DNA of 64,000 nucleotides from Labyrinthula sp. Ha (lineage: Eukaryota > Sar > Bigyra > Labyrinthulida > Labyrinthulaceae): assembly GCA_015227615.1 (NCBI GenBank), contig JAALGZ010000001.1, forward strand, positions 1,302,001 through 1,366,000, read 5' to 3'. Below, piece by piece: positions 5,607 to 31,797 of the stretch. The translations under genes were made by a program, and so were the position numbers. How positions within the stretch are numbered: position 1 is the stretch's first letter; every line of letters begins with the position of its first letter. Under the pieces are notes generated by a model, which had not been told where the DNA came from, did no database searches, and saw only the letters and a list, made by a program, of their open reading frames with translations.

Positions 5607-6311
5607 ATGCTATCGAACATTAGAAAACTTGTGACACCTAGCATAAGCTCATTAAGAGCCTTTTCCACCATACCTGCATCGCTTCCAGATCTTTCATATG
5701 ATTATGGGGCCTTGGAACCACAAATCTCGTACCTTCACGGAGTTTAATTTATCTTTAGGGGACAAATTATGGAACTTCATCACTCCAAGCATCATCAAAC
5801 TTATATAACAAACTATAACGTAGCTCTTGAGGAACTCGATGCAGCAATATCTTCCAATGAAACCTCAAAGCAGATCGCTCTCCAACCAGCAATTAAGTTT
5901 AACGGTGGCGGACATTTAAATCATACACTTTTCTGGGAAAATCTTTGTCCGGCAGGTTCCGCAGAGGCAGAAATCTCAAATTCACCAACTTTAGAAGGGG
6001 AAATCAAGAAAAAATATGGCTCCTTTGGAGATTTTCAGACCAAATTTTCTACTACAGCTGCTGCTGTTCAGGGAAGTGGATGGTGTTGGTTGGCTTACGA
6101 TACTTCATCTGATTCTGTTGATATTGTAACAACAGCTAACCAAGATCCATGTTTGGCCACAACGGGTAAAGTTCCATTGCTGGGAGTTGATGTTTGGGAA
6201 CACGCATATTATTTGGATTATAAAAATGTAAGACCAGATTATTTAAAAGCGATATTTGAAGTATTGAATTTTAAAGAAGCGGAGAAAAGATTGGCTGCTG
6301 CTAAAAACTAA
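5607..6311 (+). CDS. Mitochondrial manganese superoxide dismutase (two exons)
   Basis: Dismutates superoxide to peroxide and oxygen, probably in the mitochondrial matrix. Exons 5607-5728 and 5759-6311 join across a 30-nt intron to give 224 residues. The join restores the family block LEPQISGQIMELHHSKHH; unspliced, the frame stops at once. Metal ligands are His48, His96, Asp185 and His189 (DVWEHAYY). Gln169 in TTANQDP marks the manganese rather than the iron type. The N-terminus MLSNIRKLVTPSISSLRAF is basic and Ser/Arg-rich, a typical mitochondrial presequence, so I chose the ATG at 5607 over one 78 nt upstream. Its TAA overlaps the stop of the convergent CWC25 gene. Confidence 0.95.
5729..5758 (+). 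other. 30-nt spliceosomal intron in MnSOD
   Basis: Begins GTACCT and ends TCTTTAG; phase 2 (TC|G, Ser). Retention puts an in-frame TAA inside the intron. Removing exactly these 30 bases regenerates the invariant S-G-Q-I-M-E-L-H-H block of Fe/Mn SODs, so both boundaries are fixed by homology. Confidence 0.93.
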
Positions 6312-10987: not shown

Positions 10988-13900
10988 GAATCCCTCTTAA
11001 CTTAGCAGAGCAAGCTACTAAGAAACGGGGATCCAAGGAAGACTGAAACTTAGTGTTTTTGCTAGGGTACATGGCGATGAGACTCAGATTAAACTTATGT
11101 TTGATCTCAGATGTTACGATTCACGATCTCATCTTCTTCACTTCAATTTTGAAGAAATCTCTTGTCTGAGGATGAGATCCGGAAATTAGTATATTTTGGA
11201 TATTATTATTCGAGAACGATAAGAAAGAGCTACATTTCAGAGGAAACTAATATTATATATGTTCAGTTTGAAAAAGTTACTTGTCATAACAACTGAGCTC
11301 TTAGAAATTTTATAGGATATACGGGTGTGAATACATTTTTCATTCTGTTTTGATAATACTATTCTGTGGAGACTGGAACGCTAATGGGATTTGTCTTGAT
11401 ATACTTTTCAAGAAATTAAAAAATTCCCTCATGGGCTATAGCTCTATAAATTTATCGTATGTACAAAAGCAAACATGATTATTATCATCTAATCTATAGC
11501 ACCCCCTAGTTGTATCTGCTAGTTCACACGTTATCGACTATGTTTGAGAATACTCAAAAACTGGAATTTTTGAAGCCTTTACTGCTTTGAAAGATGGTAC
11601 ACTTACCCTAATCTAAGAACCATTTGGGGTTTCTTAACCTATTCTCCCTTCGCTGCTCTCCTACCCGCGGAAATGGATGACATTTATAATCTTATCTTGG
11701 AAGTAATACTTCTATTGAGGTTTTTTATGCCGATTTACTCACACGCACAAAATGTCTCTGGTAAGATATAAGTTGCAGTAATACCCATGGCTAGATTTTG
11801 CTATTAAAGTTCTGTTTGCTTCAAAAATATTGAACTTAGAGTCTTTAGCTACTCTACTCCTATTTGTTTTAAAGATATACGACAATTTTCCAAGCTCTTC
11901 ATCGGTGCAGCATCCAAGCGTAGGATGAATATCTTCAATCATTATGTCTTTCACTTCCTTCAATATCTCATCTCCCCGATTATTTTTTCTAATTTTTATG
12001 TCAGATGTATATTTATATTTCTGCACAGTCTGATAGGGATATGAAAGGAATCGATCAAGATACTATGCTCGTAATATTTCTTCAATGCTCTCCTGCCTTT
12101 ATTCATGAAGTGAATGACTCAACACACTAACTTGATCTATGAAAGAGTATCAATAGAATAGCGGTGTAGGTATATCAAATTATATACTTCTTATTTTTTA
12201 ATCCGTTTGGATTCGACACTTACTGTTTATTGGAATTTGCACGTAACATGTTAATAAGATGTAGATCAAGCTCTCATCTTTTCCTGAAAATACTCAAAGA
12301 CAACTGATAGGTAGCACTTCTTGAAATAAAATCATAAATTCTGGTTTGACCAACTTCTGCAGTGGAAATACGATGATAGAATGTTTGACACATTTCACGT
12401 ACATAGCCTTTTGCTCATTAGAGGCAAGGACTATAGCTCTTCTGATATCTGATATTACCACTACTATTCTATTAACTTACAAATATTTCAAGAAAGAAAT
12501 AAACCCAGAGTGGTTCTCAGATCTCCTAAAGACATAAACGAAATTAAGTAATCTAAATAAATGTTCAGTCCCTTTTAACAGAATAGGGAACAATTTATAG
12601 GGCGAAAGTTTCTACGTTTTGACATTTTGGATGTTATAAGCACAAACTTTTTTAATTTACTTTGCAATTACTCTTGAAAAATGAGAGCCCGAAGTATGAC
12701 TTCTCCAAATGCGACATCATCAAATAAGGGTTCGATATATCCCGCAATTCATACAGTCAACTCCATAATAAACTAGTTCATGCGTGTTCATTTACTCTGA
12801 AAGCTTACCTTTATCTTATGTATTTCTCATCAAACTTACTACAGAATTTTTATAGTAATCCCAAGAAAAATATTATGGAGTGCAAACCTTATTCAAGGTA
12901 CCGAGGCACTTCCTAGCCATAGCATTCTAATAGGTTTTAATTAGTTTTCAGTTTAATATTATAAGAAAAGTGCTAAATAATCTTGATCTCCTGCTTTAGG
13001 TTCGACGTATTTCCCACAGAAAATAAGCAAAATTAACTGATAAACTTTAAGATCAAACATAATGTTATTGTCACATGGAAATTCCTAGCCAATTTCACAC
13101 CTAATTATACATCTTCCAAATACTATATTTTCTTGAGTTTTTTCGATAACATCATCTCTCATGCATTGGTGAAGAGCTGTCATGCTCACAAGAATCTATT
13201 TACTATAAATCTTAAAAAGGTTTTAATCCTAACGGTTTGCTCAGTTGATATAGTGCGATGGGAGTAGCTTTCGTTTTACTTGCTGATTGCCTATAATCGG
13301 CTAGTGTAATCAATTGAGCTACATAAATCTATTGTTTCACTATTTTTGCAATTTGCTTTTTTTCACACTGTACAGATTTTGGCCACGTTTCCACTTAAGT
13401 GGAACTAGCCTATCAGAACGTGGTGTATGATACGCTGGTGTAAAAACAACTTCCATATGCCCAACCACATCTATTTACAGGAATATTAGTAGTTTTCACT
13501 AACGCTGTTTTTTAAACGTAATATTCTTAACTAATGATGATCCCAAATATATACACAAATTGAATGCTAATATACCTCCCAAACTCCAACAATGTTGGAG
13601 CAAAAATTAACATAATTTTTGAGCTTAGAATGCTGAAAAATTGTTAAGATTAAACCAATAAAATTACTTGGTCATTAGCAAATTCATACATTCATCAAAA
13701 AAACAATAAATGTGGGTATATTCTCCACCTGTTCCTAGTAGCACAAGATTTCGCAGCTAGAACAGGTATTTCCCGGGCAGTCTATAAGTCTATTCCACCA
13801 GTAAAATCATTATTTTATCTATGTATATTAAATAACAAAGTTAGAGATAAATTGAAATATTTTAATCAAGCATATTTTCCATGTACTGTGCAATTATAAA

Positions 13901-14094
13901 CAGCTTTCAGAGTTGACATACGAAACTTTCTCGTCTCATTGAGTTGAAAGCTTCTTCATAACAAGTATCCAAGTTCACTTGGTAAGAACATGAATAAAAA
14001 ATTTAGACAATTATATTTTTATATAAAAGTTTTCCTTAGTTTTCTTTAAATATATTCTTTAGCATAAAGATTTTGGAGAATCACATTTAGATCT
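10988..14094. other. Gene-free stretch
   Basis: Small frames at 11739-12026 (minus) and 12346-12537 (plus) have no recognisable domains and lie in ordinary AT-rich sequence. Near 13230-13325 two A-box-like GCTCA(G/A)TTGAT strings face each other, without a T-arm, so no tRNA is called. Confidence 0.4.
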
Positions 14095-14338
14095 GTCTCG
14101 GATACACCGAGACCTGCAAACCCGTATTCCCGTATTATTGGGAACCTTCTAACGGTAGTTATTGTCAGTGGTATAACCTGTCATAACAATAAACCTTGTA
14201 ATATAGCATTACCCTATATTGTCATAAAAGGGTTACTATTCGAAACATGTATCGTACTTATTGTCATACTTAAGCGTTAAATACCTAACCTTTCACTCAG
14301 CTTAGTGATCACAGAAAGACATAAATCGATTTACGTCA
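14095..14338 (+). promoter_or_regulatory. Leader of the gypsy element: hairpin and TTGTCATA-type repeats
   Basis: A perfect 7-bp stem, GTCTCGG (14095-14101) and CCGAGAC (14107-14113), closes a 5-nt loop in sequence noticeably richer in GC than its surroundings. It is followed by a direct repeat of CCCGTATT and four copies of a (A/C)TGTCA(T/G) core between about 14160 and 14265. The stretch ends directly before the first gag-like ATG, so it is likely the 5' untranslated or promoter part of the element. I could not find an LTR boundary. Confidence 0.4.
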
Positions 14339-17300
14339 ATGGCTGAAGCGAATACAGAATCAGTTAGCGACAAAGGGCCAGGAAGCAAAGATGTAACCCT
14401 CGATCTACCGATGACACCTTCACAAACTAGCCAAATGCTTAATCCAGAAGCAGTAAGTCCTCATCCTACCTCCGTCCCTCAGTCCGAACCAGAAGTGTTA
14501 GAGTCAAACACGCCCAAGCTTAGAAGCGCACCAGGACAAACAGAATTCAGCTTCCAGGACTTGGAGAAGATACAGAAGGAAGCCAGAAAAAAGAATAAAC
14601 TTGAAGCTTTGAGACGAGGATTAGAAGCAAAAGAACTGGAACTTCAATTAAAAGAACAAGAAATCATCAAAAGAGAATCGCAGCTTTCAAATATATCTTT
14701 GCCTGTCAATAAAGAAGTGGAAGAAGTTTCAAATCAGAAGGAGAATAATTCTATGTCATCTAAGAATGAAGTTTTAGAAGAAGTAGAAGTTGCAAACAAT
14801 GATCCACACAACATAGAAATCAAACCTGAAGCTAAAAGTGATTCTTTTATTGATGAGAAGAAGAATATTTATCCAGAGAAAGAATCAAAATCTCCAAAGA
14901 AGTTTCCAAACTCTCAATCTTCTGCACGATCTTACACTTCAAAAGCACCTCCACCTAAATACCCGTTATCCTTGACGAGCAAGAAGTCTGACTTCAAGGA
15001 TGGTCAATCAGTTGCGCGCTCCAGAATAACCTTAAACACCACGTCTACCGACGGCTGGTCCGAAACTGGAAGCTCATTTATCGACAGAAAGCAGTTTTCC
15101 AGACCTTTCAAGCAGCTTCCTTTACCAGAAATAGTAACTAACGCTCCGGCCAGGTCAGGACATCCATTGGTCCAGGTTTCTCTTCCCAAGAAGCTCTCAG
15201 AATTAACCGGCGAAGCTATTGAAGTCTTTTTACACGAATATACTTCCGTCGCCCATTCTGTCCCAGGGCTTACAATACAGAGCTTACTGACTAAAAAAGT
15301 CTCTGACTATTTATATTTAAGAGGCGTACAAGTAGGAAGTAGCCGCTCTGTTCTAAGATATTTACACCAACATTTAGAAAAATATGCTATTCGAAAAAGA
15401 AAAAAGTGTCTAACAAACCTTAAGCACCAGTTGATGTGGCCAACCATGATTAAGATTCTTGAAGATCAAATTTATGACTTTTTCGACCAAGTAAACAATA
15501 TTTTAGAATATTTGAAGGAAGAAGAACTAAAGATGTACAAGAAAAAGATATTTAAAATTCTGCTGGAGAAAATATCAAAAAGATATGAATTAAGTTTTGA
15601 AGAATATTCGCTTTCTAATAATTCATTTTCTTTATCGAAGCTCAGGAAGCTCTTGATTAAATACAGCAGTATTATAGATTCTGTTACAAGCATAAAAAAC
15701 CATTCTAAGCAGCAGTCAAATCAATTATTTAGACCTCTCCAACAGGATCGAAAGAATATTAGAGCCAGAGTTATTAAAGTTGGAAGGCTGGGAGAAAAGT
15801 CCAGAGACATTACGGTTATGATTTACAACCCTCTTTCCAAAGAATACCAACAGATCTAAGGAGTTATGGACACAGGGGCAGATATGAATGTTGCATCTAC
15901 TCATTTAATTTCTCCGTTTCAAATAAAGGAGGAAAAACCTTGGGTTATCAAAGAGGTTCAGACTTTTGACGGAAAGCGTCATCCTGTTTCTAAGGTTTCC
16001 TTATCTAAAATAATATTAGTCCCAGATGGTTACAAGCTTGATATTGGAGTTCAACGCTTCTTTTGTATTGATGTACCTGATGTCAAGGAGTTGATTATTG
16101 GAGACAGAACCCTTAAATACCACGGGGTCTCACTACAAATAAAAGACTCAGCTAAAGCCGTATAAATGGAATAGGAAGTCGGCAAGAAGGACAGTAAACC
16201 TCTGGTGACTTTCGAAAATTCTCCACTTTACTTTTCTGCTATCTTTCACAATGCAGAAGAAATATTTGCAGATATTAATGGGCTAATCCGCCGATTAGCA
16301 ACATTGGACTTTATATTCGTAAAGGGATTTAGAAAGCATTGGAACGATTTATTACAACTTTTTCAAGATAATTCTTTTAAACTAACGGGCTCTTACATCT
16401 TTTATGAAAAAAACAATTCCATTTACACAGACAACTCTTTTCTTTTCATTCAATCTCATCAACATTATTTTTTATTTAGATCAACAATAAGAAAGTTACC
16501 TCCTATTTTTCATCAAGAGTTTACAGATATTTCTATTCAATCAGTTAACTATGAAGACAGATTAATTTATATTTTATCAAACCTTATTTCTTCGACCAAC
16601 CATAACGTAGAAGTGGGCATTCTTCCTCCTACATTCAATGCAACCGAATCCTTTTTCAAAGACAAGCGTGCCAATATTTACCTTGTTCACGCTAAGAAGC
16701 TAGAAGATTTGGACACTCAGCATTTTGAGAACCTTGAGAAGCTCCCTCCAGATCACCAGGTTCCTCCGGTTCTTATTTCTAACCTCATCGACAACGTCCC
16801 AGATGAGTTTAATGAGACTGGAATCGGTGAAGAGAACATCGACCTCAAATAGGAAGAAAATACTATAAAAAATATGATCAAGGAGAAGTGTACTCAATCA
16901 ACACTTTCAGAAACTCAGAAAATAGAACTAGAAAATATTATGTTTACAAACCTCTCTTCTTGGGGGATTCGGCAAAGCAATGCCAGGATCTCAAAACTTC
17001 ATCCCATCGAAGTTACCCTAGCACCTGGTCACTCCATCCTTCGATCTGATGGATACCATTTAACTAGAGAAGAAGGAGACTTTCTTGAATTAAAATTTGC
17101 TGCTCTAGAAAAGGCTGGAATAGTCAAGAGGCAGAAAAACACTGTCTGGGGTCACCCAGTATTCGTTGTGCCGAAGAAGATGCAAACACCTTCGGACTGG
17201 GTTAATTATTCAAATGATCAAAGAGAAGAATGGAAGCAAAAGAATATATTAAATCGCTACAGAATAGTAGCAAATATGATTAAACTCAACAAAATAACGG

Positions 17301-20300
17301 CGCCAACCTCTTTACAATTGCCAAGTTTAGAACGACAATTTTAGGTGTCAATAACTCACACTTTTTTATCACTTTAGACATCCTTAACGGATTTGATTTC
17401 TTACCAACTTTTGAGAGAGATGAAGATATTTTCACCTTAGTCTCCAGGAGATCCGCCTGGAAAATGCTTGGAGCGCCGATGGGGTGGCGAAACACCCCCC
17501 GCTCTATTTTGTGAACGAATTGTAACAGATATTATTGATGGCCAAGAAGAGAAGTTCTTTGCAAAACCAAACAATGGTTGCATCGCTTGGTTTGACGACC
17601 TTTTACTTTATTCGGAAACCTTTGAAAGTCTTCTACATATTCTCGACGCTTTGTTAAAACAAGCCGCTAGGATGAGTGTGCGTTTCAACTTAAGGAAATG
17701 TGGCCTTTGCGAACCCACCACCATCTGGTGTGGGAGGCAAATAAAACACGGCCAATGGAACTTTGATCCTTCCTTTTTTGATAAAATACTTAATCTTCCT
17801 AAGCCTAAATATCAACACGAAGTGGCTCAACTAGTTTATTTATGCAATTGGATAGCTCCGAATGTGCCTAAGATGGCAGCATTGTGAAAACCTTTTGCTG
17901 AATTTGCTAATTTAAAAGGGAAAAAACTAGCCGATCTTGAAAGAGCAAAAATAGAAGTCACGTGGACTACAGAGTTAGAAGAGTCTTACAAAGAGTTATT
18001 GGATGCAATAGTTGCTTCAAGCCAGCGACACCTTAGTACTTACGAGGCTAAGGATCCTATTTTACTTTTTACAGACAGCTCTTCTGATACTTGGTCTTTA
18101 GTTGTATTTCAAGACAAACAACAAAATATTACCAATGATGTTAGGTTTCTTCAACCGAGACCTCTTATATTTTTAAGCGATTCATTTACAACTTCTGAAG
18201 TTAGATGGCACATAGCCTCTAAAGAACTTTACCCTATTATTTATTCGTTCGAAAGATTAGGGTTTCTTTTACGCACACATGAAGGTGCAATATATGTTTA
18301 CACCGACCACCGTGCATTAATTTCATTTATTAGAACAAAGGAGAACGAAAAACGAGTCCACTGGGACCGCATGTACAAATGGGTTCTTAAACTTCAATCT
18401 GTTGACATGATTGTTTACCATATTTCTTCAAGAGATAATTTTGTAAGCGACCTTTTAACCCGCTGGGGAAAACAAGAAAAAACTATCTCTCAAGTTTCTA
18501 GATGCCATTTTATTCAGGATGATGATCTCTCGTCAATAAGTAGTCTTTCAACCTTGGACAATATTCAGGACTCTATTCCTGAAGATGAAGCACAGATCCT
18601 TCAAGAAGATTTTAATCAAGTTGAAGACTTTGAGAATTATTTACAAGGGTGCTCATTTAATTTCGCTAGAGTCAGGCGACTCTACAGCATTGATGCAGTT
18701 TCTTATTCTGTGAGAATGGATGACTTTAACCCTGAAGTTCTTAGACCTACTACTTATTCTATCAACGAAGAACTAAGTCCTTCAATGGACGAACTCTTAC
18801 AAAAACATATATCTTTTTTATCACCTTTTTACTCTGGAAATAAGGATTACAAACTCCAGGATCGAAAGATTATTCAACACCAGAAGAAACTTCCAGCGAC
18901 CTTCGTTGAAGAAAAATGCAACAACAAGGAAGGTTTACTTTATTTCAACGATAAACTTGTGATTCCTCGCTCCTTAGCAGCCGAAGTTATTATTTTTAAC
19001 CACATTCATAGATGTCATCCTTCCTTTTCTTCAGAGAAAAAATACTTAGAAAAATTATATTTTCACGGAATCCCTAAAGGGGACTTTAAACTATTACTGA
19101 AATCTTATAGAGAAAGATGTTTACACTGTAACCGAACGCCTAAAATCATACGTAGGCCTTACAACTTTACTCAATTAGCCAAGCGTTCAAGAGATATCCT
19201 TAGAGCTGACTATCTTTATATTAATAGTCACGGATATATTTTAGTGCTACTAGACTCTTGTACACGCAAAGTATTATTAACTCACGAAGAATCACCAACC
19301 GCTGAAGGCATGGTTAGAGCTTTAATGCGGTGGAGAACCAACTTAGGCTTCGCGGAATCCTTTTTAATCATTACTGATAATGGATCACACTTTGCTAACA
19401 GGTTACTTAAGCTCATGTCTAAGGCAGTTGGCTTCGAGCAATCGTTTACGATTGCATATTCTCCATGGACCAATGGGCCTGTGGAAACCATTAATACTAT
19501 TATTTTACAATATATCAAAACTTTAACCTCACAGTTTGGAATACACGATTCAGAATGGCCTACACTTTTAGAAATTATATCCTACATTATCAACAACTCT
19601 CCAAATCCTAGAAGATTAGACAAAACTCCAAACGAATTATTTTTATATTATAAACTATCGGTTCCAATTATTCAAAAACCTCCTCAACTTTTTGCAACGC
19701 ATTACGATGGCAATCTTATTCAACCTCTTAATGTTGAAGAAGTGGTGCACACGTCTAATCACATTAGAGATGAGCTAGATAAAATACAGGATCAAGTCTC
19801 TAATAACGTCAAGCTTCAAAGGGATCGCGAGAACTCTAGAAGGAATAGGAACCGAGGTCCTATGTTACAATTTTCTGCCGGAGATTACGTTCTTATTTCA
19901 GAACATGGCACATTAAATGCTACAGAAAAAACACGTTTGAACTGGATGGGGCCATACCAGGTTCTTGAGTCAATCAGTGAGAACGTTTACATCGTGGAGA
20001 GCTTATTGGGAAAGCGTAGAACTGTGCACGGTGCACGTATGTGGTTCTATTCTGACGCACAACCTCCAAATAGGAAACAAATGAAGAAACTATTTGTCCA
20101 TAACTTCTCTAGTTTAGAAGTCGAAAACATTATTTCTTTGCGGGTTACGCAGGGAAGAAGACCGAGATATGAACTAGAAGTTAAATGGTTAGGCTTCAGT
20201 TCAACCGACAATACATTTCAAAATCAATTAATTTTATAAGAAGATTTACCTCTCTTAGTTCGAAGATTCATTAATGAAGAAGTTAAAGATGAATACACTA

Positions 20301-20851
20301 AAGAAGCTTTACTTCAGTTACTCAAGAAACACGATAAAAATACAGAGACTAAGAAAACAAAAAAGAGGGGAAAACCCAAAAGAAGAAATATTATTCGATT
20401 TTTAAAGAAAACGAACTTCTCTTTACCTGATGCTGGAAACACAATTGGATGGTATGAAGAAGAAAAAGATATTCTAGCAAAGCTTATTCTTAAATATGGC
20501 TGCGGAAAATACGAAGACTATTTATCCTTCCCTTATTTACCTTTTCGTAGTAAGCAACAGATGTCAACTCAAATTCAACGAATGTTAAATATTCAATCAA
20601 TTGGAATCTTCCATAGTTTGCGGTTCGAAATTAAATTAGCTCAACAGTTTCTAGAAGACGTTCTAGGAATTACAACCTTTCATAAAAACCTTCCTGGTAA
20701 GTTCAACATGTTACAAGAAAAGAATAAGATACTTGAACAATTTAAATCTCAAGTTTGCACTCAAGTTGAATCTGAAGCAATCATTGTTCCATATTTCCGA
20801 AGAATTACAAACCTTAGACAGACCTCGCAGATTTGCGAGAACACAAGGTAG
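14339..20851 (+). mobile_element. Ty3/gypsy retrotransposon fossil with chromodomain and SANT-like tail
   Basis: Family order is gag-PR-RT-RH-INT on one strand. Parts: a gag-like region with a charged coiled coil (about 14339-15860); an aspartic protease with DTGAD (near 15870); reverse transcriptase with FDDLLLYS (near 17595); RNase H (about 18050-18480); integrase with an HHCC zinc finger, the DDE triad and a GPY/F module (about 18990-20030); a chromodomain-like segment (about 20095-20215); and a SANT/Myb-like segment (about 20440-20640). The pol frame is interrupted in roughly half a dozen places, so the copy is dead. Several domains remain readable over long stretches, which suggests moderate rather than great age. 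No flanking LTRs were found, so the limits given are coding limits only. Confidence 0.88.
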
Positions 20852-21110
20852 AAAATAGCCGCCTTGGTGTTTAATAACTATAAAATATTCATTTTTGTTC
20901 TATTATATTTTTTGATTATCACTGTGTATTAATTATGCCAGTTTTATTTATCTCTCAAGATACAAACCCAACAATTTGCTTCTACTCCTTTCATAAACAC
21001 CACTAAGTTTGTTTGCCCTGAAGAACAAATCAATGTTGAGTTACCCCAACCTACAGACGAAATCCACGAAAAAGAAATCAAGATAATATAAACTGTTTTT
21101 TCTTGTTTGA

Positions 21111-22560
21111 ATGAAAAGGAACAATTTCTCTACATATTCAGACTCAAAAACAGTTCAAGTACCCGAAAAATCAATTTTAAAGGTTTGCGAAGGTGATGAA
21201 GTATCAACTGGTCAAAGTATTCTCGAGTTCATTTTGATTCTTAGTTCTGTTTATCGCACCAACAGTAAATCCACCTACAATAACAAAAAGTGATGTTAAA
21301 GGAATAGTTAAAAATATATCAAATTCTGTATTAACAATTTCCTATTGCTCGCATCATGTTGTTCTTCACGGATTATGCGCAGAATGTGGTGAAAAAGTAG
21401 ATGTCACTAAAAAAAGAAAAATCAATAATTTCTCAGAAGAAAAAACAAAAGAAATGAATATTTCAGGTGGCCATAAAATTAAATTATCTGCTAAGGAATT
21501 GTATTCAACTCACGAAAAAAAGAAGAAACGATTATTTGATAGTAAGAAACTCTGCTTGATATTAGATTTAGATCATACTTTATTACACGCAAAAACTTTG
21601 GGAAATGAAGAAGTCGAAGAAGGTGTTTTAGAGATAGAAAGTAATAGGGAAAGATTAGGAGTAAAACTTCGACCTGATTTAAAGAATTTCTTGGATAGTT
21701 TGAAGAATAAATTTGAATTTTCAGTGTATACTCAAGGAACAAGAGATTATGCAGAAAAAGTTTGTAAATTATTTGATGAAGAGGGAGATTATTTTCAGAA
21801 TAGAATTTTAACACGAAGTGATGAAACAAAAGATAACACAACAAAGCAATTAAGCAATTTATTTCCAGTTTCTGAAAATATGGTTTTTATTCTTGATGAC
21901 AGAAGTGATGTTTGGAAAAATAATGGAGATGCTAATTTGGTTACTATAAAACCATATAAATATTTTCATAATTTGCGCGAAATAAATAATTCATCAGGAA
22001 GAGAATTTTCATCCTCTTCGAAACAAGATAGAGAACTTTCTTTTTTGAAAAGTTTTTTTGTAAAATGTCACGATTTATTCTATGAGAGTCGTATTTACGA
22101 TGCAAGGAAAATACTTCTTCAACTAAGAAGATCTATTTTAAATCAAATTAAACTTGCCGTCTTTTTTGACGAACCCTTTTTGAGGAAGAAATGTTTTTCT
22201 TTAGGGTGCTTAAAAGTGACAATAATAGATAATTTCAAGGAAGAGAAGAAGTTTACACATTTAATCGTGGAAAAAAAACTTTCAAAGAAAATAAAAGAAG
22301 ACGTCAAATTTCGTCAAGAATTGTTTCAGTGGTCTTTTGAAAAAAATATTTGGTTATTAGATAAGAATTGGATATTTAGTTGTGAACAGTCGTGGAGAAG
22401 AGTTGAAGAAGAACAATTTTCTGTTGTTAAGTTGAATGAGATGCAAATCTTGCTCTTGAAGGGAAACAATGGTGCAGAAGAAGAATCCGACTCAGACGAT
22501 TCATTTGCTGCTGAGTTAGAAGACATGGATGATCGTGAACCTCAGGAGAATGGAAATTAG
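21111..22560 (+). CDS. FCP1-like RNA polymerase II CTD phosphatase (two exons)
   Basis: Exons 21111-21216 and 21245-22560 join across a 28-nt intron to give 473 residues. Order: a lipoyl-like N-terminal motif (CEGDEVSTGQ, then ILF after splicing); the FCP1 'C..H..LHGLCAECG' Cys cluster at about 70-85; the FCPH domain with catalytic Asp143 and Asp145 in LDLDHTLLHA (DxDxT) and a downstream LDDRSDVW; and a BRCT domain at about 350-435 ending in WIFSCEQSWRRVEEEQF. The C-tail is acidic (EEESDSDDSF). FCP1 removes phosphate from the Rpb1 tail to recycle polymerase. The start is the ATG about 20 nt after the last gypsy-side frame, so its promoter must be short or lie inside element sequence. Shorter than animal FCP1, but all core parts are present. 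Confidence 0.9.
21217..21244 (+). other. 28-nt spliceosomal intron in the FCP1-like gene
   Basis: GTATTC...TTCTTAG, phase 1. The exon-1 frame otherwise ends within 80 nt, and the downstream frame has a stop directly upstream. Joining at these sites gives STGQ-ILFIAPT and continues without a break into the conserved Cys cluster and phosphatase domain. A second GT six bases upstream would give a 34-nt intron and lose the GQ of the lipoyl-like motif, so I prefer 28. Confidence 0.82.
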
Positions 22561-23457
22561 TTGGAGTATAAATTCCAGGCTTGGATTCTTGTTGCACGGT
22601 TAAATCTCAATGTTTCTCATCAAGTTGCCATTTGAACTGTTCAAAAACCTAATTTCGAAAAACTAAAAATTTTCACTTTGTGGTCTTGAAGAAAAAAAAT
22701 AGGTGATTTTGTTATTGTAGCATTGAAATATTTTTTTTCGATGTATTCTAGACTCTGTTGCTCTCCTTGTTTCATAACGGAGTTGTTTCTAGTATAATAT
22801 TAGATTAGCAACGGGATTCTCTGTTGCGCCATGAGAAGAGAAATTAAGAACCTATGGGTTATTGTTTCCCTTAGAAATCTAATTCCTATTTTTTGTGCTT
22901 TTGCTTTATGAAAAGATGTGTGAAAGTATTTTTACTGGGTATTCAAGTGAATTACGCTATTCGATGTTGAAAATTTAGAAGTCGATTTGTAGAATGAGTC
23001 TTTCGATGGAGTGGTTTTTTGGAGCAGCAGTGTAGATGAGTTAATGCGAAAAAGAAAACATGCTCAGGAACGTATTGTGCACTTTTGAAAAAATATAATT
23101 GTGAAATAAATCATGTTGTTTAAGTATTTTCTTTTTGTGCAAACCCAAATTTAAGACAATAGATTTTCATGTTGGTTTTGTTTCGAAATTGTGATTTTTG
23201 CAATACAAGACATATAATCATATAAAAAATATCACGAGCAAAAATAAATATAATTTCTACCACCAAAACCAAACTAAAGTAAAAAAGAAAGTATAAGACC
23301 CATGGAATAAGCACTGGTGCCAAGATTGCAGTTTGACCAGACAGGGTTCATTAACATACCTTGGTAAAGCTTCAGGAAACACACTCTACCCTAATGAACA
23401 CAGGAGAAACACTTAAAATTTTCATACAATCCAAAAACCCTCCCATTCAATGGAGAT
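22561..23457. other. 3' flank of the FCP1-like gene, no gene seen
   Basis: AT-rich and T-rich. The only frame (23120-23323, minus) is hydrophobic low-complexity and resembles nothing. Confidence 0.4.
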
Positions 23458-24429
23458 GTGGGGGAGAATATTGTTGGTCAGGATGATAATGTTAAGTTTG
23501 TTCTTCAGTTTGAAAACTGTATCTTAAGCGAAAAGGTTAATGAAAATATGGAAAATGGTTATTTTAAAATGATGCAAAACGTTTACAAAGTCCAATTTAT
23601 TATATTTGCCTATTTTAAGGGATTCTGCTCGACTCTTGAAACTATTAACAAGGTCAGCATAGGAATTAAACAGTTTATTTGGAGAGAAATTCTTGTTTCA
23701 TAAAACGATAACGATTTGTTATTAAAGTTTAAGAAATAGATGAAAGGCATTAAAGCACCAAATGATATAGAATAAAATATTATTTTGATTCCAACGGTTC
23801 ATGTAATTAACTGCTTAGAAAGTATAAGAAACATAGTTGATATCTCCTTTAAAAATACAAAAGCGATACCTGAGGATTTATGTTTGAACTCTTACGAAAT
23901 ATTCTCTGTAGTTGATATGCATATACTGAGAAATCATGTTAGCTTGAGATTAGGCATGTACCAAAACAGAAAAGAGACACTTCATCTTACGTTGAATTTT
24001 GTAAAAACTTCACTTATGGAAAGCTTATCAGAAGTCATGTTTATGGTGGATGATTAGAGAAAATATTCAGGCTTTGCGCAGTTATACAGTATTTCAAGAA
24101 TATTCAAATAAACCACGAACCTAGACAATTTAGCAGTTGGTATATTCTGTGAAAAAGATAATTTTCACTCAATGAGATCAATTGTTTTCCAAGTCATTAA
24201 CTTAAGCTTTAGCAAGAACAAATCCAAGCATGCTCATAATAAGGAGACCTCAGAGAGCTATCAAACAGTATATGCTAGAGTACTAAAGAAGCATAAAAAT
24301 TTTAGAATTTACTTTAAAAAAAGGGTGGAAAGAGAGTTTTTGCGTGTTGACACGATTGAACCGGACCTGTTGATAGAGATTTTAGATTCCCGTATGTTGT
24401 TAAACTCTCATGTAGCTACTACCTTATAA
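23458..24429 (+). pseudogene. Possible decayed ORF of unknown family
   Basis: Three open stretches follow each other on the plus strand in the same frame (81, 90 and 85 codons), with five TAA/TAG stops between them and no shift. That is an unusual run for 30% GC sequence. The translation has mixed charged and hydrophobic composition (for example RVEREFLRVDTIEPDLLIEI) rather than the simple composition of spurious AT-rich frames. No domain is recognised. Alternatives: a recently decayed gene, part of an unknown mobile element, or chance. Other genes here end in TAA and TAG, so read-through by a changed code is not supported. Confidence 0.3.
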
Positions 24430-27400
24430 AGCCTTGAATGGAACCGAAGGAAAAAGTGCTTTTGCAACAGATATTTATCTTTTAGTAGAATGGTTATTGT
24501 TTTTTTACTATTAATTTTTCTATTTATCATCGAGGCATTGCACAAAAGAAGGGCCTGATGCAAGAATAAGTTTGAGAAAGCAATGAGTACTGGATTTACT
24601 TTGTTATACAGTACTATAGAGGCAATATTCTTGTTGGAGTTCATTTTTCTGATAACCTAAGTTAATTGTATGAATGGTCAGTCATTCTTCAAAATAAACT
24701 GTACTTAATATTATCATTTAAGCTGTTAATATTATTAGAATAAATAATCTAGGATGGACTTATCATGAACGTATTAAAGTAAGTTGCAAAACTTTGAAAA
24801 AGATTAGAAACACTCAGAAATAAAAGAAAGAAGTCGCTATGACATCAAGCTTAAGCTCTAGTAATTTAAAAGGGTAAACAGCTCCGTCAGCTAAGAAAGC
24901 TCTTGTAATGAGAAAGGAGGGATGAAAAGAGTCTTGTGGGATTTGAAATTTGTTATTCATTCTAGACAGAGGAATGAACTGAAAGGTAAAGAAAATAGCT
25001 CAGATATTAAGTAATTAATGATCACTCTATAATTTATCGCAAAAATCTTGGTAGCTTTGAATAAAGTGCTATTATCAAGAGTCAAAACAAGGAAACATAT
25101 TTAGGTAAGAGAAGAAGAATTCCCGTAACAATTGCGGCAGACTACAAATTATTCGTGCTTTGTTGGAACAGCAACTAGAAGAGTAAAGCCATAGAAACTT
25201 TCAATGAGAAAACTGGGCAAAACTTTTTCAAACGTTCTTAGTCTACTTGAAAAACATAATACACACGATAAAAATGTTTGAGAAGCTACTAGGGGGGCTC
25301 TTGAATTATTTTTTATTTTGGTATTATTCATACCACAGAGTATAAAGTTTCGTTTGATAACTCTCTCATGATTATTCTATGAAATACATTTAAGAAAAAA
25401 AATATTTTAACTTAAAAGTTTTGCATATAATGAAACTAATTAAGTTATAGTTCTTTACTGGTTGAAGAGTAAACCCACTCTGGCTCTAACTAAAAAGCAA
25501 TATATAGTTGTTATCTAGAATGTTTTAAACATAAAAGCGTAAGACGTGTTGCTAACAAATTAATAATTACAATGAAGCATTGCTAGCTAAATTAGAGACA
25601 TATAGAGACACAATATAAGCTTCCCGTAATAGGTATTTGTACTAAATTTACAAGGCAGTTAGTTCTTGTTAGTTCTAGTAGTAAGGTTAAAACAATAATA
25701 ACCTGGTAGACTTCATTTCCTGTACCACTGTCAACAAGAACTCTACAGAGTATATATAAAAATATATTCTAGGTGATAATAATGGAGTTTAACTTACTCA
25801 ACTGATTGTATAATTCATTTAGGAAACATCCGAGTGTCATTCACTATTTATTAATGACTTCATTGTATACACAAGTGCTAAATTGTGGGTAAACCAAATA
25901 AATTCTTACAGCAAGCCCTTAAACTTTATGTAAAAGAGTGATTTGAATATTCTTTGTACATATCATGACCTATATAACTTGTCTTAATTATGTTGAAATT
26001 AACTTGAATTCATAATCACAACTCTAACCTAAGAATATCCAACTCAACAACACGGTGTTGTAAGGTATTAAACGATCCTAAAACATGATTAATTACTAAA
26101 TTAGACACCTTTGCCCAATAACAATATGATGTATCTTAAAATTTTCCCTGAAAGCTAGAGTTATGATAATCCTTAAAAAATAAAACTTAAATAAAAATTT
26201 TGCTTCTGAATACAACAAAACAAAATCTAGAGCTTTGATCTTGGTAGTGCCCTGTTTATATACAAGGTTATTAAATTCTATTACAATGCAGTGAAGGGCT
26301 TACAACACGGGTTATTAAATCCTACGCCAGATAAAATATTACATGTGAACTTATTTTCATTTCATCTTGACTGAAACAGATTTCAAGATGTACTCAAAAC
26401 TCTAATCGTAGATCTAATGAACATACGATTAGAACCGGGTAATTTATGACATGAGAGAATCACTGAGGAGAATTCACACAGGATATAATAGGCCGCTAAC
26501 CCTAAAAAATTGCTAGAAATTCATCCATAGTTAATCTAGTGGATATGTCTAGTACCTTGGGCAATAATTTTAACTCAGGTATTATCTCAAAAAATGAAAA
26601 AAATAGTTTTATGTCTACAAGAGTCAAATCAAACTCAAATCAGCAGATTCAAATCTTCCTTTCTAGACTTTTCAGTAATCAAGCGTGAAAATCAAGGTTT
26701 TTCCTCAAATATGATGGTCATATCAATAGAAGAGTCTTGCCCCCCAGACGATCACAATTCTTTAAAAAAACATATTGCTAAAGAATGAAGATAACGAAAT
26801 AACTAGAACAGACGAAGTTGACCCTATATATATAGTAAAATCATGCTAATGACAGGATATTTTTAGCTAATACTACGGGGAAGCTTTAATGATTAGAGGG
26901 CAAGAAAATAATGGTCCTCTTTGATATCAATCTTAGCTTGATAATTTCAGATTTTAGTAAAATCTGTTGTAAAAGGCACCAAGTTTGATGGGGCACTTCT
27001 CCGCCAAACCCTGTTACTAAATAGCAAAATCTGTTTGAAGGATAATAAGAAAACTGAAAAAAAATATCTAGGCTACAACTTGAATAAGGAAATAAATAAT
27101 GTTTCCATGGGAAATTCGATCTGTTAAGCTAAGTTCCATGGGAGTTTACTTTAAACATTTTGACTCTATTCTCAAAGTATGGCTTGGTACCAGAGAAGTA
27201 GCCAACTATTATTTGTAAAACGGCTATTATCTTCATATAAAACAGTCATGAGGGTACAGAGCTATTTAGAATTGGAGAATTGTAAATAAGATCCTACTTC
27301 GATATAGAGTTACTATACTAACCTCAAATAAAAAATTTAATAAGCTGTTTTAAAATTCTATAACTGATTCGTCGGCGTTACCATATTATTTAGCTCAGAA

Positions 27401-28605
27401 AAATTCCTAGTTGTCTTGATTTTCTATTGTGAACAATTACTATTAGTAGGTTAACATAACTTGAATACAAGGAAAAAGTATTTCACTCTTATTGATTTCA
27501 ATTTAAGAGTTAGTTAGTGAAGCCTTAATAGATTTTTTTCTGTGTTAAGACCATTAAAATCTATTACATAAAAGAGAAACTCTTAAACATTAGATACAAT
27601 ATTTATAATCAGAATTTACTTGAACTTTAATTTTTTAGAAGGTGAGACATGTACCATGGAACACTTTTTTCATGTTGGGTACGAAACTTTAGGCTTAATG
27701 ATGATTCGAGTAATATGGTGAAAATGAGAAACCATAGCACAAGGTGTGGCATTTCATTTACTGATAATTTATCAATAAAAAACTTGTCCATATTTTAATT
27801 TTGGTTATTTTGATAATTCACCAACTATTTTGACAGTTTATTGATAATTAACTGATTATCATTACAAGACTGGCCACATGGTGGTTGGGAAAATTAAAAA
27901 AAATAGGATTTTCCATTCGTCTGCCCTAATACAACTTTTATAAGTGAGCTATATGTCCCAACTATATCCTGTTACCTGATTATTTTTCGGTCATATGGCC
28001 TTTTTATACTGTTCTTACCACGGTGCTATAATATTGTCTATGCCATTTTGCCACAGTCTGTGTGATCCCCTTTTCTATTGATGCTCATTTATTAAACAGA
28101 ATAAAACCAGAATTATTTGATACGAAACAAAATCCCAATTCTCTTCTTGTTATTCAGAGTCAAAACAATTATCAAATAATTATTCACAAACCATATGAAA
28201 TCAGAGGCCTACGTAACATCTGTTGAAATAAGCTATTTATCTTATTTATTTATAAACGATTATCGTACCAAAGACTTAGAATATTATTTTTCAAGAAGAA
28301 CCTAGGAACCAATTATCTCATAATTTTGTAACTAATCTATTGTTTATTACTAGCTCCAATGAGACAGACAGGAATGTTTCAACATGCCTGTAACGACAAG
28401 CTGAAAATATATTTTCCAATTTTATAGGCATGCTCGATACATGTTTATCCAGGTTGAGGAAAAGTAACAATATATAGGTGAAGAAACTGAGATAATACTT
28501 TAAAGGTTTTTCTGTAAGAATCACTAGTAGCCAGAGAGTCAAACGATACTGCATTACCGTGAAAACATCGCATCTGCTCAACTTCAAGAAACAAACCACA
28601 GAACA
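24430..28605. other. Gene-free stretch upstream of island 2
   Basis: Short frames only, for example 26594-26788 (plus) and 28318-28599 (minus). None has recognisable domains and I see no RNA gene. Sequence is uniformly AT-rich. Confidence 0.4.
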
Positions 28606-29322
28606 ATGAAGAGACAGAGAAACATAGCGGTGTATAATTTTTCTACAGCAAAGCAGAACTTTGTGTCACATATCCAACCACTCAAATATATTTCAAGACC
28701 AAATTGCAATCAAAGGAACCAGTTTCGCCCTCAACAAAAACGAAAACGAAATATTGAAAGTAACCACAGAGAGAGTACTTCGAACAACAAAGAAAAGAGA
28801 TCAAGAATAAACAAAAATCACAATAAGAAGAAGGATTTGTTCATGCTTAAAAAATATATGGATATTGTAGCCTCATATGGAAACACACCAGAAGAGATTG
28901 AACGATGGAAGAAGGATAGAAAAAAAGGGTTTCCGACTAATGAAAAAGTAGACAGGAACTGCATCGACCTAGAGGATACATTAGATGAAGTAAAAGAAAC
29001 TTCTCAGAAAAAGAATAAAGTTGAAATTCCAAGGGAGAAAAAAAAAAGGATATGTATCAATTTTTTGAATAGAACTTGTAAGTTTGGGGATAAATGCAAA
29101 TTTCCACATGATGAAGAACGTAAAGCTGAGATAATAGAAAAGCGTAAGCAAGAGATAAAACGGCGTTGTGAAGAAAAATTTTCTGGCTCCAAGAACAAAA
29201 GAATTGGGTTTGAAGATCTTCTGCCAGCATTAATTCAAGATGAGAAAGATAAGGAACTTAAAGCAATGAAGCAGATTATCCATTTTATCTGTAAAAACAA
29301 CTTTTTTCTGGATGCGAAGTAA
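28606..29322 (+). CDS. NUFIP1-domain protein with CCCH zinc finger
   Basis: 238 residues, very basic N-terminus. The segment YGNTPEEIERWKKDRKKGFPT (about 91-111) fits the conserved NUFIP1 core, and a CCCH finger follows: Cys150-x7-Cys158-x5-Cys164-x3-His168 (C-INFLNRT-C-KFGDK-C-KFP-H). In yeast (Rsa1) and animals this family is a platform for assembling box C/D snoRNPs with the R2TP chaperone complex. The CCCH finger is a common companion in protists and is expected to bind RNA. The start is the only ATG near a short leader. Its TAA directly abuts the stop codon of the convergent gene at 29323, with no base between them. Shorter than human NUFIP1. Confidence 0.75.
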   Translation: MKRQRNIAVYNFSTAKQNFVSHIQPLKYISRPNCNQRNQFRPQQKRKRNIESNHRESTSNNKEKRSRINKNHNKKKDLFMLKKYMDIVASYGNTPEEIERWKKDRKKGFPTNEKVDRNCIDLEDTLDEVKETSQKKNKVEIPREKKKRICINFLNRTCKFGDKCKFPHDEERKAEIIEKRKQEIKRRCEEKFSGSKNKRIGFEDLLPALIQDEKDKELKAMKQIIHFICKNNFFLDAK

Positions 29323-30864
29323 TTATCCATGTTGAAACTTTCGTAACCAAGCAAGCTGTTCCTTATTAAAGCCACACTTTTTCCAATTATTGATCATTCC
29401 TTCATATGTTGTTGAGTTAAACTTTGAAACGAACTTCTTCATTAACTTTTCGTTTCTTCTGCAGACTAGAGTTGTTCCAATCAAATCCACGTGCGGCAAC
29501 AAATCTGGTTCTTTGGTTAAGTCAAATATCTTACTCAAGAGAATATCAGCTTTTGGTATTTTTTCCTTAATTTCCTTTACAACTGTAGGGATCAAAGCGT
29601 ACCAGTGCCTGTTCATCTCTTCTTCACCACCGATACGATCTATTAGTTTATATCCCTTTTTTTGTACTTCTTCGCAATCATCAACCAGCAAGGTAAGAAC
29701 AAAAGGAACTAATCTGTAAACAAAGTCGAATCCTTTATAGGTGAAGAAAAATATATTCTCGAGCATGATGGCAATCTCCATTCTAACCTGTTCGTTATGA
29801 TCTCTCAACAGCTTACCCAGGTGATTATGCCTTATTTCTCTTTGATAGTATACATAGACAGGAATCACATTATCTTCTCTAAACCCAATCAATTCATAAA
29901 CAGATTCAATTTCCCTTACACAAAACCCTAAACATCGTAAACAAGCAACCCGTTCTTTCGACTTTTTGGATGAAAGTATCTCCACTAGACTCGTGGTCAG
30001 TGCTTGGCAATATGGAGCAAGTGCTTGACCATAGTTTTTTATCTTCAAGAAATTTGTTAGTACTTCTAGAGCCAATACTCTATTTTCCACAGAATTTCTT
30101 GCTCTACCAGAAATCTCAGAAATCAAACAAATTATTATTGTGTGCAGGTGATGAGCCAAGAGTCCAAGCTTCTTCATACTGGCAGAGCGGTCAATTGCTG
30201 TGTTCATGAGTTGCAACAATATTAACCTGACCTCCTCACTATTTTCTTTTGTTGATTTTAGTTTCACCTTTGTAAAATCATGAGGATCAATCGCACCGCC
30301 ACGATTCAGAATCTCATTAGTGTCAGAATGCATTGGAAGGTAGAATCTTTTGTGCTTGAAATCCAATTGATACCCAACAGAAAGTTTTTCACAGATAATA
30401 GGAAACATGTACGGGAAAATGATGTCGATATCAACAAACTCATTCTTAGCCAGTAGCTGAACAAAAACTTCAACTACAATTAATTTTATATTTTCTTTCT
30501 TATGTGTAAAAAGCTTAAGCATTGCTTTGAATTTGAACAAGAACATCTCCAACATTAAAGCATTGTCACTGGGAAGTTCTCTAAGTTTGATGAATTTAGA
30601 CAGTCTTTCAAGAGAGTTTTCAATTATTTTTTCGTTAGCTATATCAAGATTCTTGAACAACTTTTTCAAGCAAGTTTCAGCCTCAGCCTCACATATATCT
30701 CCCCAATCCTCCATTCTCTCTTCATTTCTTTCTTCAGTACGTGGTTTCGTTAGCGTTAATCGGTGAATTTCCGTATCCTTTGTATCTCCAACATCTTTCT
30801 TCAAGCTGTTCAAATACGTTTGATAAAAAGCAACTTGGTTTTTCTTTTCATAAAGAATTTCCAT
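29323..30864 (-). CDS. HEAT-repeat protein, best match dynein assembly factor 5 (DNAAF5/HEATR2)
   Basis: 513 residues, almost entirely alpha-helical repeats. HEAT-like units can be followed from about residue 55: a helix pair around 85-125, then SEEVRLILLQLMNTA (about 205), LLRDHNEQVRMEIAIMLENI (about 355) and LTLLVDDCEEVQKKGYKLIDRIG (about 390). The SEE(V/L)RL..LQL unit and the DD.(E)EV..KG..L.D..G unit resemble DNAAF5, a cytoplasmic factor needed to preassemble axonemal dynein arms. DNAAF5 is usually longer (about 850 in human), so this may be a short form or another HEAT protein. The adjacent TTL-like gene fits a flagellar role. Convergent with the NUFIP1-like gene, zero spacing. Confidence 0.5.
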   Translation of the reverse strand: MEILYEKKNQVAFYQTYLNSLKKDVGDTKDTEIHRLTLTKPRTEERNEERMEDWGDICEAEAETCLKKLFKNLDIANEKIIENSLERLSKFIKLRELPSDNALMLEMFLFKFKAMLKLFTHKKENIKLIVVEVFVQLLAKNEFVDIDIIFPYMFPIICEKLSVGYQLDFKHKRFYLPMHSDTNEILNRGGAIDPHDFTKVKLKSTKENSEEVRLILLQLMNTAIDRSASMKKLGLLAHHLHTIIICLISEISGRARNSVENRVLALEVLTNFLKIKNYGQALAPYCQALTTSLVEILSSKKSKERVACLRCLGFCVREIESVYELIGFREDNVIPVYVYYQREIRHNHLGKLLRDHNEQVRMEIAIMLENIFFFTYKGFDFVYRLVPFVLTLLVDDCEEVQKKGYKLIDRIGGEEEMNRHWYALIPTVVKEIKEKIPKADILLSKIFDLTKEPDLLPHVDLIGTTLVCRRNEKLMKKFVSKFNSTTYEGMINNWKKCGFNKEQLAWLRKFQHG

Positions 30865-30963
30865 TTTGTTAATAAATATAACGGACTAGTAATAAATTAT
30901 CTTAACCGTTAACCCTATAACTGAACTATACTAATATCCGTTTAATATTCAACAAAAGTTAGA

Positions 30964-31479
30964 TTAAGGAGAACTAAGAGTAAAATCTGTTGGTCCTAGC
31001 GTAGGATGCATCGAGGGAGAGAAGGATGGTTGAATAATAGGAGAATTTGATGGATTATCAGTCGGTGTCATTGATGGTGCAAGAGTTGGCTCAGGTGTCG
31101 GTGAATTTGTTGGAAAACTTGTAGGGGAAAGGGATGGAGATAGTGTAGGAAAAAGGGTAGGAGAACCAGTAGGAGCTTGAGTACATTGATAATATCTACA
31201 AGCTTCAGCATTTCCAGATTTAATCAAGGAGTTCAGCGAAGGGGGGAAATCGTACGTTGTTTCTCGTGAAACCTGCAGGTAAAGGATCACCACATACGAA
31301 ATAAAATAAACTCCAACAGAAAAAAAAGAGAATGTTATATGTTCCTCTTTGATAACAGAGCTTGCTTTATAATCTTCAGACGCAGCTCTTGAAAATAAAC
31401 GATCTAAACGCGCTCGAGTTTGTTGTTCTTGATTTGCTGAAGTCATAGGAAATATGATATTGGCTAATATGGTCTGCAT
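30964..31479 (-). CDS. Single-pass membrane protein with PT-repeat tail
   Basis: 171 residues. A charged N-terminal part (1-46) precedes one membrane segment (about 47-70, FSFFSVGVYFISYVVILYLQV), a short linker with two Cys (94 and 99), and then about 70 residues of tandem three- to four-residue units such as SPT-LFPT-LSPS and SFPT-NSPT. No known catalytic domain. PT/PS repeat stalks of this kind are abundant in surface proteins of diatoms and other stramenopiles, where they are presumed to be O-glycosylated. It lies 99 bp upstream (in genome order) of the HEAT gene start, transcribed the same way, and divergent from the TTL-like gene. Function unknown; a surface or vesicle protein is likely. 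Confidence 0.7.
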   Translation of the reverse strand: MQTILANIIFPMTSANQEQQTRARLDRLFSRAASEDYKASSVIKEEHITFSFFSVGVYFISYVVILYLQVSRETTYDFPPSLNSLIKSGNAEACRYYQCTQAPTGSPTLFPTLSPSLSPTSFPTNSPTPEPTLAPSMTPTDNPSNSPIIQPSFSPSMHPTLGPTDFTLSSP

Positions 31480-31797
31480 ATGACACTTTTGGTCATTCTA
31501 CGTAATAATGTCCATAGCCTGGTCAAAACAGACAGTTCTAAAGATAAGACATTTTGAGAGAAAATGATGAGAAATAGAAAAAACGAGTTAAATGTACGGG
31601 ATGGACAAGAAATAAGCCGACTCAATGAAAAACCGTCTAAGTAAATTTAGATATAGCTTTCAATTGTTTAGATTTCTTTTCGGAAGTGTTTTCGCCAAGA
31701 TCCGCCTGCGTCCCTGTAAGGCTTCTTGTTGTTTGTTCTTGTCGAGTAAAGAGTTGCATCATTTTTAGTATTTTTAGTTGCTAGTATCGTGATTTTT
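31480..31797. promoter_or_regulatory. Shared divergent promoter region, PT protein and TTL-like gene
   Basis: 318 bp separate the two divergent ATGs. The interval holds no frame and contains a short GC-richer patch (near 31700, CCGCCTGCGTCCCTG), unusual in this window. No named motif can be claimed. Bidirectional use is inferred from spacing only. Confidence 0.45.

Follow-up and report, generated by a model that had tools for sequence, protein, structure and literature searches.

A probable 28-nt intron in an FCP1-like gene of Labyrinthula sp. Ha, and a class of 28-32-nt introns with an adenosine close to the acceptor

The FCP1-like gene and its probable 28-nt intron

The window analysed here is a 64,000-nt stretch of the Labyrinthula sp. 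Ha genome (C1:1302001-1366000; the genome comprises 50,840,425 bases in 153 contigs). It holds an FCP1-like gene with two predicted exons separated by a 28-nt GT-AG segment, which is very probably a spliceosomal intron. The features of this gene are:

21111..21216, forward strand: FCP1-like exon 1 (35 codons plus one base; the ATG frame is open to the donor; putative start codon)
21217..21244, forward strand: 28-nt intron, GTATTC...CTTAG (based on splice-matrix ranking and a Biotin_lipoyl_2 match over the junction)
21234..21238, forward strand: putative branch site TTGAT, with the candidate branch A at 21237 (position -8, where 17 of the 22 tiny introns have an A)
21245..22560, forward strand: FCP1-like exon 2, with a Cys/His motif and the NIF/FCP1 phosphatase domain (stop codon TAG at 22558-22560)

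Read from the letters of the window, the segment 21217-21244 is GTATTCTCGAGTTCATTTTGATTCTTAG, i.e. 28 nt with GT-AG ends and a length of 3n+1. With the segment retained, the ATG frame from 21111 runs into a stop after 60 codons; with the 28 nt removed, the product has 473 aa. This product matches Pfam NIF (93.1 bits, 1.9e-26) and PDB chain 3ef0, an RNA polymerase II CTD phosphatase (1.7e-25). Because its match to TIGR02250 (132.7 bits, 1.2e-38) lies slightly below the NCBIfam cut-off of 135.25, we refer to the gene as FCP1-like. The HAD domain of the NIF/FCP1 family carries a DxDxT motif, which is fitted by DLDHT in the translation, and FCP1 CTD phosphatases have a C-terminal BRCT domain, for which the product gave no match at E values up to 1.

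As candidates we listed every 10-250-nt segment with GT-AG ends whose removal links an ATG-started frame to the exon-2 frame (n=49), and we ranked them using splice matrices trained on 17 CCT introns alone. The 28-nt solution ranked first with 14.9 bits, followed by a 43-nt and an 18-nt solution (13.2 bits each). Over the junction, Biotin_lipoyl_2 was matched most strongly by the product of the 28-nt splice (18.5 bits, E 0.0018), compared to 14.0 bits for the unspliced sequence and 12.6 bits for the 43-nt splice, all of these being below the Pfam cut-off of 29.8. An intron that is real but has other ends, either 34 nt from 21211 or with a 3' splice site further on, would keep the frame with either GT, and a second copy of the gene that lacks the TAG (see below) has an in-frame AG 21 nt on. 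Yet the 34-nt solution reaches 8.3 bits versus 14.9 bits, falls outside the 28-32-nt class described below, and had no Biotin_lipoyl_2 match reported, making such ends very unlikely. The 28-nt intron of length 3n+1 that the initial annotation had placed in this gene was thus borne out in length, frame and rank, and the 34-nt alternative that it had named was less favoured.

The Cys/His motif CSHHVVLHGLCAECG of the exon-2 frame aligns with the relatives P0002 and P0005. Because Met106, the first ATG in the exon-2 frame, comes only after this motif, an upstream exon is required, and the 28-nt splice supplies the ATG that the conserved motif otherwise lacks. The N-terminus as a whole did not align significantly with P0005 (238 of 2000 shuffles were equally good). 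We conclude that the FCP1 junction is well supported, less directly than the junctions in CCT, PAK and SOD genes described below.

A near-identical inverted copy of the FCP1-like gene is present at C1:1724502, ~400 kb from the gene in the window. In this copy, the acceptor TAG is changed to TGG at the position corresponding to 21243, so that the AG of the 3' splice site is lost; there is an in-frame stop at 21319-21321, and seven differences fall between 21243 and 21320. The lost acceptor and the in-frame stop make the 5' end of the copy look broken, while the last 1049 coding bases (21512-22560) are identical to those of the window gene. Moreover, the public FCP1 model P0001 (EukProt, 368 aa) begins at Met106, downstream of the intron, and is missing the first 105 residues; at one differing site, it has the residue of the copy and not that of the window gene. 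The broken 5' part of the copy together with its intact remainder, and the start of P0001 at Met106, are what would be expected if the gene had no intron, its N-terminal part were dead sequence and the protein began at Met106. We give this explanation little credence, because CSHHVVLHGLCAECG aligns with relatives upstream of Met106 and is preceded by no ATG in its own frame, and we therefore retain the 28-nt intron.

The copy is part of a larger doubling: region 12248-25910 is duplicated in inverted orientation on the same contig (C1:1720001-1730000, L035) with 97-98% identity, and the 5.1-kb aligned block around FCP1 differs by 2.8% although 21512-22560 shows no differences. The doubled region represents either a real duplication or joined haplotypes. 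Positions 14089-20821 are a retroelement-like stretch of same-frame ORFs interrupted by stops, with an end that by eye resembles a chromodomain; this stretch is absent from the inverted copy (C1:1720001-1730000), i.e. the copies differ by an insertion.

Predicted tiny introns in chaperonin, PAK-like and superoxide dismutase genes

For a census of introns, we located chaperonin genes by PF00118 and aligned seven of them to proteins of relatives using a protein-to-genome alignment with GT..AG ends, a free intron length of 10-400 nt and no length preference. This alignment called 22 introns in six of the seven genes, 14 of which were 28-32 nt long, and no other size recurred. Three further calls of 46, 36 and 61 nt were re-read as 28, 30 and 31 nt, respectively. 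Re-reading 36 as 30 nt gained 23 points with P0024 and P0026 and cost 1 and 3 points with the other two relatives. Re-reading 46 as 28 nt was neutral for the alignment (+3, +3, +3, -3) and rests on the consensus rather than on the score. The 61-nt call would delete SSKIIG, which is near-invariant among CCT1 structures; the exact junction of the 31-nt intron that replaces it falls within a gapped part of the CCT1 alignment. Calls of 21 nt (CCT7), 15 nt (CCT1) and 45 and 60 nt (Hsp60) were set aside as length differences in coding sequence that contain no stop.

Spliced in this way, the CCT1 product aligns over residues 7-550 with T-complex protein 1 alpha, and five of its six junctions are gap-free, the third being gapped. 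For CCT2, GT-AG ends gave an alignment score of 1821 versus 1528, 1630 and 1617 with decoy pairs. Outside the chaperonins, a PAK-like kinase gene (L028) has introns of 29, 30 and 29 nt, and its spliced product aligns with PAK1 (4zji) over each of these junctions; two extra residues directly follow the third. In the window itself, a Mn-superoxide dismutase (SOD) gene was read as follows:

5607..5728, forward strand: Mn-superoxide dismutase exon 1 (putative start codon)
5729..5758, forward strand: SOD intron of 30 nt, GTACCT...CTTTAG (the A at -8 is 5751)
5759..6311, forward strand: Mn-superoxide dismutase exon 2 (Pfam Sod_Fe_C 5e-36, Sod_Fe_N 7.7e-22)

The spliced SOD protein aligns without a gap over the junction to mitochondrial MnSOD (8sks). 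The initial annotation had described a second, unrelated gene in the window with a GTA...TAG intron under 30 nt. A tiny GTA...TAG intron is indeed present in SOD; because it measures 30 nt, the statement that two of two introns are under 30 nt would be slightly off if SOD is the gene that was meant.

Altogether, we read 22 tiny introns in eight genes (five of 28, six of 29, seven of 30, three of 31 and one of 32 nt; mean 29.5), of which 17 come from a single protein family, CCT. All 22 start with GT and end with TAG (GT and AG being required by the alignment that yielded most of these introns), and 18 start with GTA. We considered the possibility that the apparent introns are indel errors of a long-read assembly, a concern raised by two C75 copies of a myosin gene that change frame without a plausible intron. 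GT and TAG at the ends of 22 of 22 segments, their narrow length and an A at a fixed position in 17 of 22 speak against such errors, as do the seven introns with a length divisible by three, which cause no frame shift; we therefore regard indel errors as extremely unlikely and continue to treat these segments as introns. The two C75 copies (339024-340497 and 361758-363771) have their frame changes in common, of ~11 and 2 nt, which misfit 28-32 nt.

As a further source of intron lengths, we used myosin and kinesin genes and measured gaps between close same-strand neighbours in different open frames, corrected for profile overlap. This gave 21 pairs, mainly from those rows with a close neighbour out of 71 myosin and 30 kinesin rows; 13 pairs with a single shared open-frame length (coding inserts) are omitted from the count. 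Eleven of the 21 frame-changing gaps fit 28-32 nt (myosin 29, 29, 31, 31, 31, 32 and 32 nt; kinesin 28, 28, 29 and 31 nt), and part of these pairs share a profile site in paralogues and are not fully independent. The remaining ten misfit (2, 2, 11, 11, 19, 37, 68, 103, 122 and 255 nt, the values 19 and 37 being rough).

Counts that do not depend on homology gave a mixed picture. Within the window, the spacing between GTA-type donors and TAG showed no peak, and in the whole genome GTAAGTN{18,21}TTAG occurred at 507 places versus 675 in the reversed control, i.e. without excess. The lack of excess for patterns without a branch site suggests that introns are not numerous. With a branch-like element included, GTAAGTN{5,35}TTRATNNNTAG had 20 of its 68 places in the whole genome in the 28-32-nt range, where a uniform distribution would put 11.0 (P 0.004); the total of 68 compares with 76 in the reversed control, some places are repeats, and two are known CCT introns. 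A gene finder run without matrices returned 15 GT-AG introns and 16, 15 and 14 with decoys, which is indistinguishable. Using the learned matrices and equal bins of 7 nt, it returned 44 introns at 26-32 nt, in a listed run that includes two training introns as well as the SOD, FCP1 and three PAK introns, and 23, 17, 20, 19, 17, 29, 15 and 19 introns in eight other non-overlapping bins (68-74 left out). Over 264 kb, a scan with the splice matrices exceeded background at 28-31 nt by no more than a few places. A flank-based count gave a weak signal, with, at its three settings from the loosest on, 6, 5 and 3 introns at 27-33 nt, 7, 4 and 2 at 90-96 nt, and 7, 1 and 0 at 76-82 nt. Among specific domains, 14 proteasome matches contained neither an in-frame stop nor a split; of 20 AAA matches, one had in-frame stops, and one gene fell in two matches with a single open-frame length.

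Of the 23 introns that we read, 22 are tiny, and eight of the nine genes with readable introns contain tiny introns only. The suggestion in the initial annotation that tiny introns are a genome-wide rule stands to this extent; it is at odds with an Hsp60 intron of 127 nt, with the ten of 21 exon gaps that misfit, and with the finding of no intron at the proteasome domains and most of the AAA domains searched. These observations raise the question whether there are two size classes, tiny and ordinary, and whether the census is biased because short gaps are the easiest to recognise. The Hsp60 intron, the frame-changing kinesin and myosin gaps of 68, 103, 122 and 255 nt and the flank-based counts of seven in both the 76-82-nt and the 90-96-nt range at the least strict setting are consistent with two classes. 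Against them, no second size was repeated in an alignment allowing 10-400 nt, the equal-width bins peak at 26-32 nt alone, and the sole long intron read is accounted for by a U14-like RNA (see below). On balance, we consider two classes possible but rather doubtful.

A candidate branch site and a U14-like RNA in the Hsp60 intron

The tiny introns have an A at position -8 in 17 of 22 cases, compared to an average of 4.6 when the inner letters are shuffled, and no position accumulated 17 A in any of 20000 shuffles. Of the five introns that do not belong to CCT and were not used for training, four also have an A at -8. Around it, T is found at -11 in 19, at -10 in 18 and at -7 in 14 of the 22 introns, and together the positional A and its T context point to a branch-like site pressed on the acceptor. 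The motif itself is weak: TTNAT occupies the corresponding position in 10 of the 22 introns, CTRAY occurs anywhere inside only 1 of 22, and no hexamer is found in more than four. The donors are likewise weak (T at +6 in 17 of 22), and the intron interior is 52% T. In the 17 introns with an A at -8, the donor lies 20-23 nt upstream of this A, and their length varies on the upstream side of the candidate branch. Based on established knowledge of U2-type splicing, we take the A at -8 as the putative branch nucleotide. The check proposed in the initial annotation, for a branch A within 10 nt of the 3' splice site, thus turned up a candidate; its expectation that such introns leave little room for a separate branch-point did not hold up against an A at -8 that no shuffle matched.

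Consistent with U2-type splicing, U2 snRNA has three full-length matches in the genome (model positions 1-192 of 192, 113-117 bits). A genome search for U12 snRNA gave no match, but the control of this search also responded nowhere. We conclude that it is highly likely that 21217-21244 is a U2-type intron in the 5' part of the FCP1-like gene and that it belongs to a widespread labyrinthulid class of 28-32 nt.

The only long intron read is the one in Hsp60:

L015 2860-2986 (C132): Hsp60 intron of 127 nt (from the protein-to-genome alignment)

A C/D snoRNA matching SNORD14 fills 85 of these 127 nt and is flanked by 20 nt upstream and 22 nt downstream. Because the match of 43.8 bits (E 8.6e-7 over two overlapping loci) lies below the Rfam gathering score of 64, we refer to this RNA as U14-like. 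No other SNORD14 was found among the 99 of 1164 candidates in the genome that were scored. With ~20 nt on either side of the snoRNA, the only long intron read resembles a small intron plus cargo in this one case, and it offers a lead toward other snoRNAs in over-long introns.

These observations suggest a mechanism in which the spliceosome would recognise introns mainly from their geometry and less from their sequence. A weak GTA donor would be followed after 20-23 nt, by way of a T-rich stretch with a weak TTNAT, by the A at -8 and then by TAG. With this A so near to TAG, no polypyrimidine tract would fit between branch and acceptor, and introns would be held near a minimum size except when they carry cargo, the latter being suggested by Hsp60. 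Sequence and homology show the junctions, the lengths, the positional A, the U2 genes and the U14-like RNA in Hsp60; that the introns are spliced, that the A at -8 is used, that there is a lower size limit and that cargo explains longer introns are predictions from them, the last from a single case. In its strongest form, the idea is that of a physical ruler with the A 8 nt from the 3' end, the donor 20-23 nt upstream of it, a minimal size, and an origin ancestral in Bigyra; we put this forward tentatively, as a speculation that may well turn out to be wrong. If true, a constrained branch position would no longer go together with a strong branch motif, contrary to the association reported before; introns would be as small as the ruler allows, with snoRNA cargo as the main route to longer ones, and a mode in common with Blastocystis would be ancestral in Bigyra rather than derived from parasitism.

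Relatives, gene models and other features of the window

Blastocystis belongs to Bigyra, as does Labyrinthula. Blastocystis has a modal intron length of 30 nt in three subtypes, with 98.3% GT-AG in subtype 1, and 18,200-35,412 introns in 12.9-18.8 Mb with a mean of 33-50 nt, a longer tail and U12 introns (PMC5608401). The introns described here resemble these in being GT-AG introns of ~30 nt; unlike those of intron-rich Blastocystis, the labyrinthulid introns appear sparser, and a fixed A at -8 was measured here. Stentor coeruleus, a ciliate, has introns of 15-16 nt (PMC9505925), shorter than the 28-32 nt observed here but with a tiny, near-constant size in common. Paramecium and Nyctotherus have ultra-short introns of ~25 nt (PMC5014332, PMC2633312), likewise a narrow tiny class but shorter and in ciliates. 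In the reduced parasite Mikrocytos, whose spliceosome is reduced as well, introns of 16-17 nt are numerous and conserved in sequence (PMC10245619); the exceptionally narrow size range is as found here, while labyrinthulid introns are 28-32 nt. Finally, a study of 50 species reports a constrained branch position only for a subset of the species with strong CTRAY-like motifs (PMC2483917). As in some of its intron-poor eukaryotes, the candidate branch A is confined to one position close to the acceptor; the labyrinthulid introns depart from that pattern in combining a fixed position with a weak motif (CTRAY in 1 of 22).

The titles and abstract openings of the open literature searched contained no report of labyrinthulid intron lengths. 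Tiny introns as such are already known, and the labyrinthulid is a new lineage for this trait; we regard the fixed branch geometry and the cargo-bearing exception as the new parts. The tiny-intron genomes encountered in our literature searches belong to ciliates, reduced parasites and Blastocystis. A labyrinthulid genome of 50.8 Mb with the trait makes the antiquity of tiny introns in this branch testable. With their short length (28-32 nt) and fixed candidate branch A, these introns also probe the lower bound of spliceosome geometry.

The lineage assignment agrees with CCT2, which shares 70-73% identity with two sequences from Aplanochytrium. In a tree of 27 CCT2 rows hand-chosen from the matches, it groups with two metagenome proteins (support 100/99) and then with Aplanochytrium (88/85), within an enclosing clade of 11 rows (100/100), indicating a labyrinthulomycete and probably a labyrinthulid. 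The metagenome CCT2 proteins P0024 and P0026 begin at the first Met past intron 1 of our CCT2, and P0024 continues without the remaining five introns. The pattern looks as if intron 1 were shared with the metagenome relatives and the rest differed, as far as can be told from the protein sequences.

For CCT2, a public model from the genome itself was found neither among the best 120 of 7969 matches to the near-whole protein (nearest listed 73% identical) nor among the best 120 of 1917 matches to its second half (nearest listed 70% identical), in searches that a model of <156 aa could escape. Together with P0001, which lacks its first 105 residues, this agrees with the prediction of the initial annotation that standard gene finders would truncate such genes. 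Public gene models in such genomes may thus be shortened or missing even for the core protein CCT2, and comparisons of gene content may be distorted.

Other features of the window include a gene for the branching factor Cwc25 (6308-7327, reverse strand), in which no intron was seen. Its N-terminus, MSLSFLAKKDFH, is without the Gly2-4 plug. Stentor Cwc25 is reported to lack the Gly2-4 plug too (PMC9505925). Plant Cwc25 and human CIR1 are not known to carry a glycine plug either, and we did not accept plug loss as evidence of a Stentor-like adaptation. Three overlapping ORFs at 58931-61324 (reverse strand) were considered as an intron-split gene and rejected, because they are pieces of a copia-like reverse transcriptase and integrase. 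An ORF at 28531-29322 (forward strand) encodes a NUFIP1-like protein with a CCCH zinc finger; NUFIP1 is a snoRNP assembly factor.
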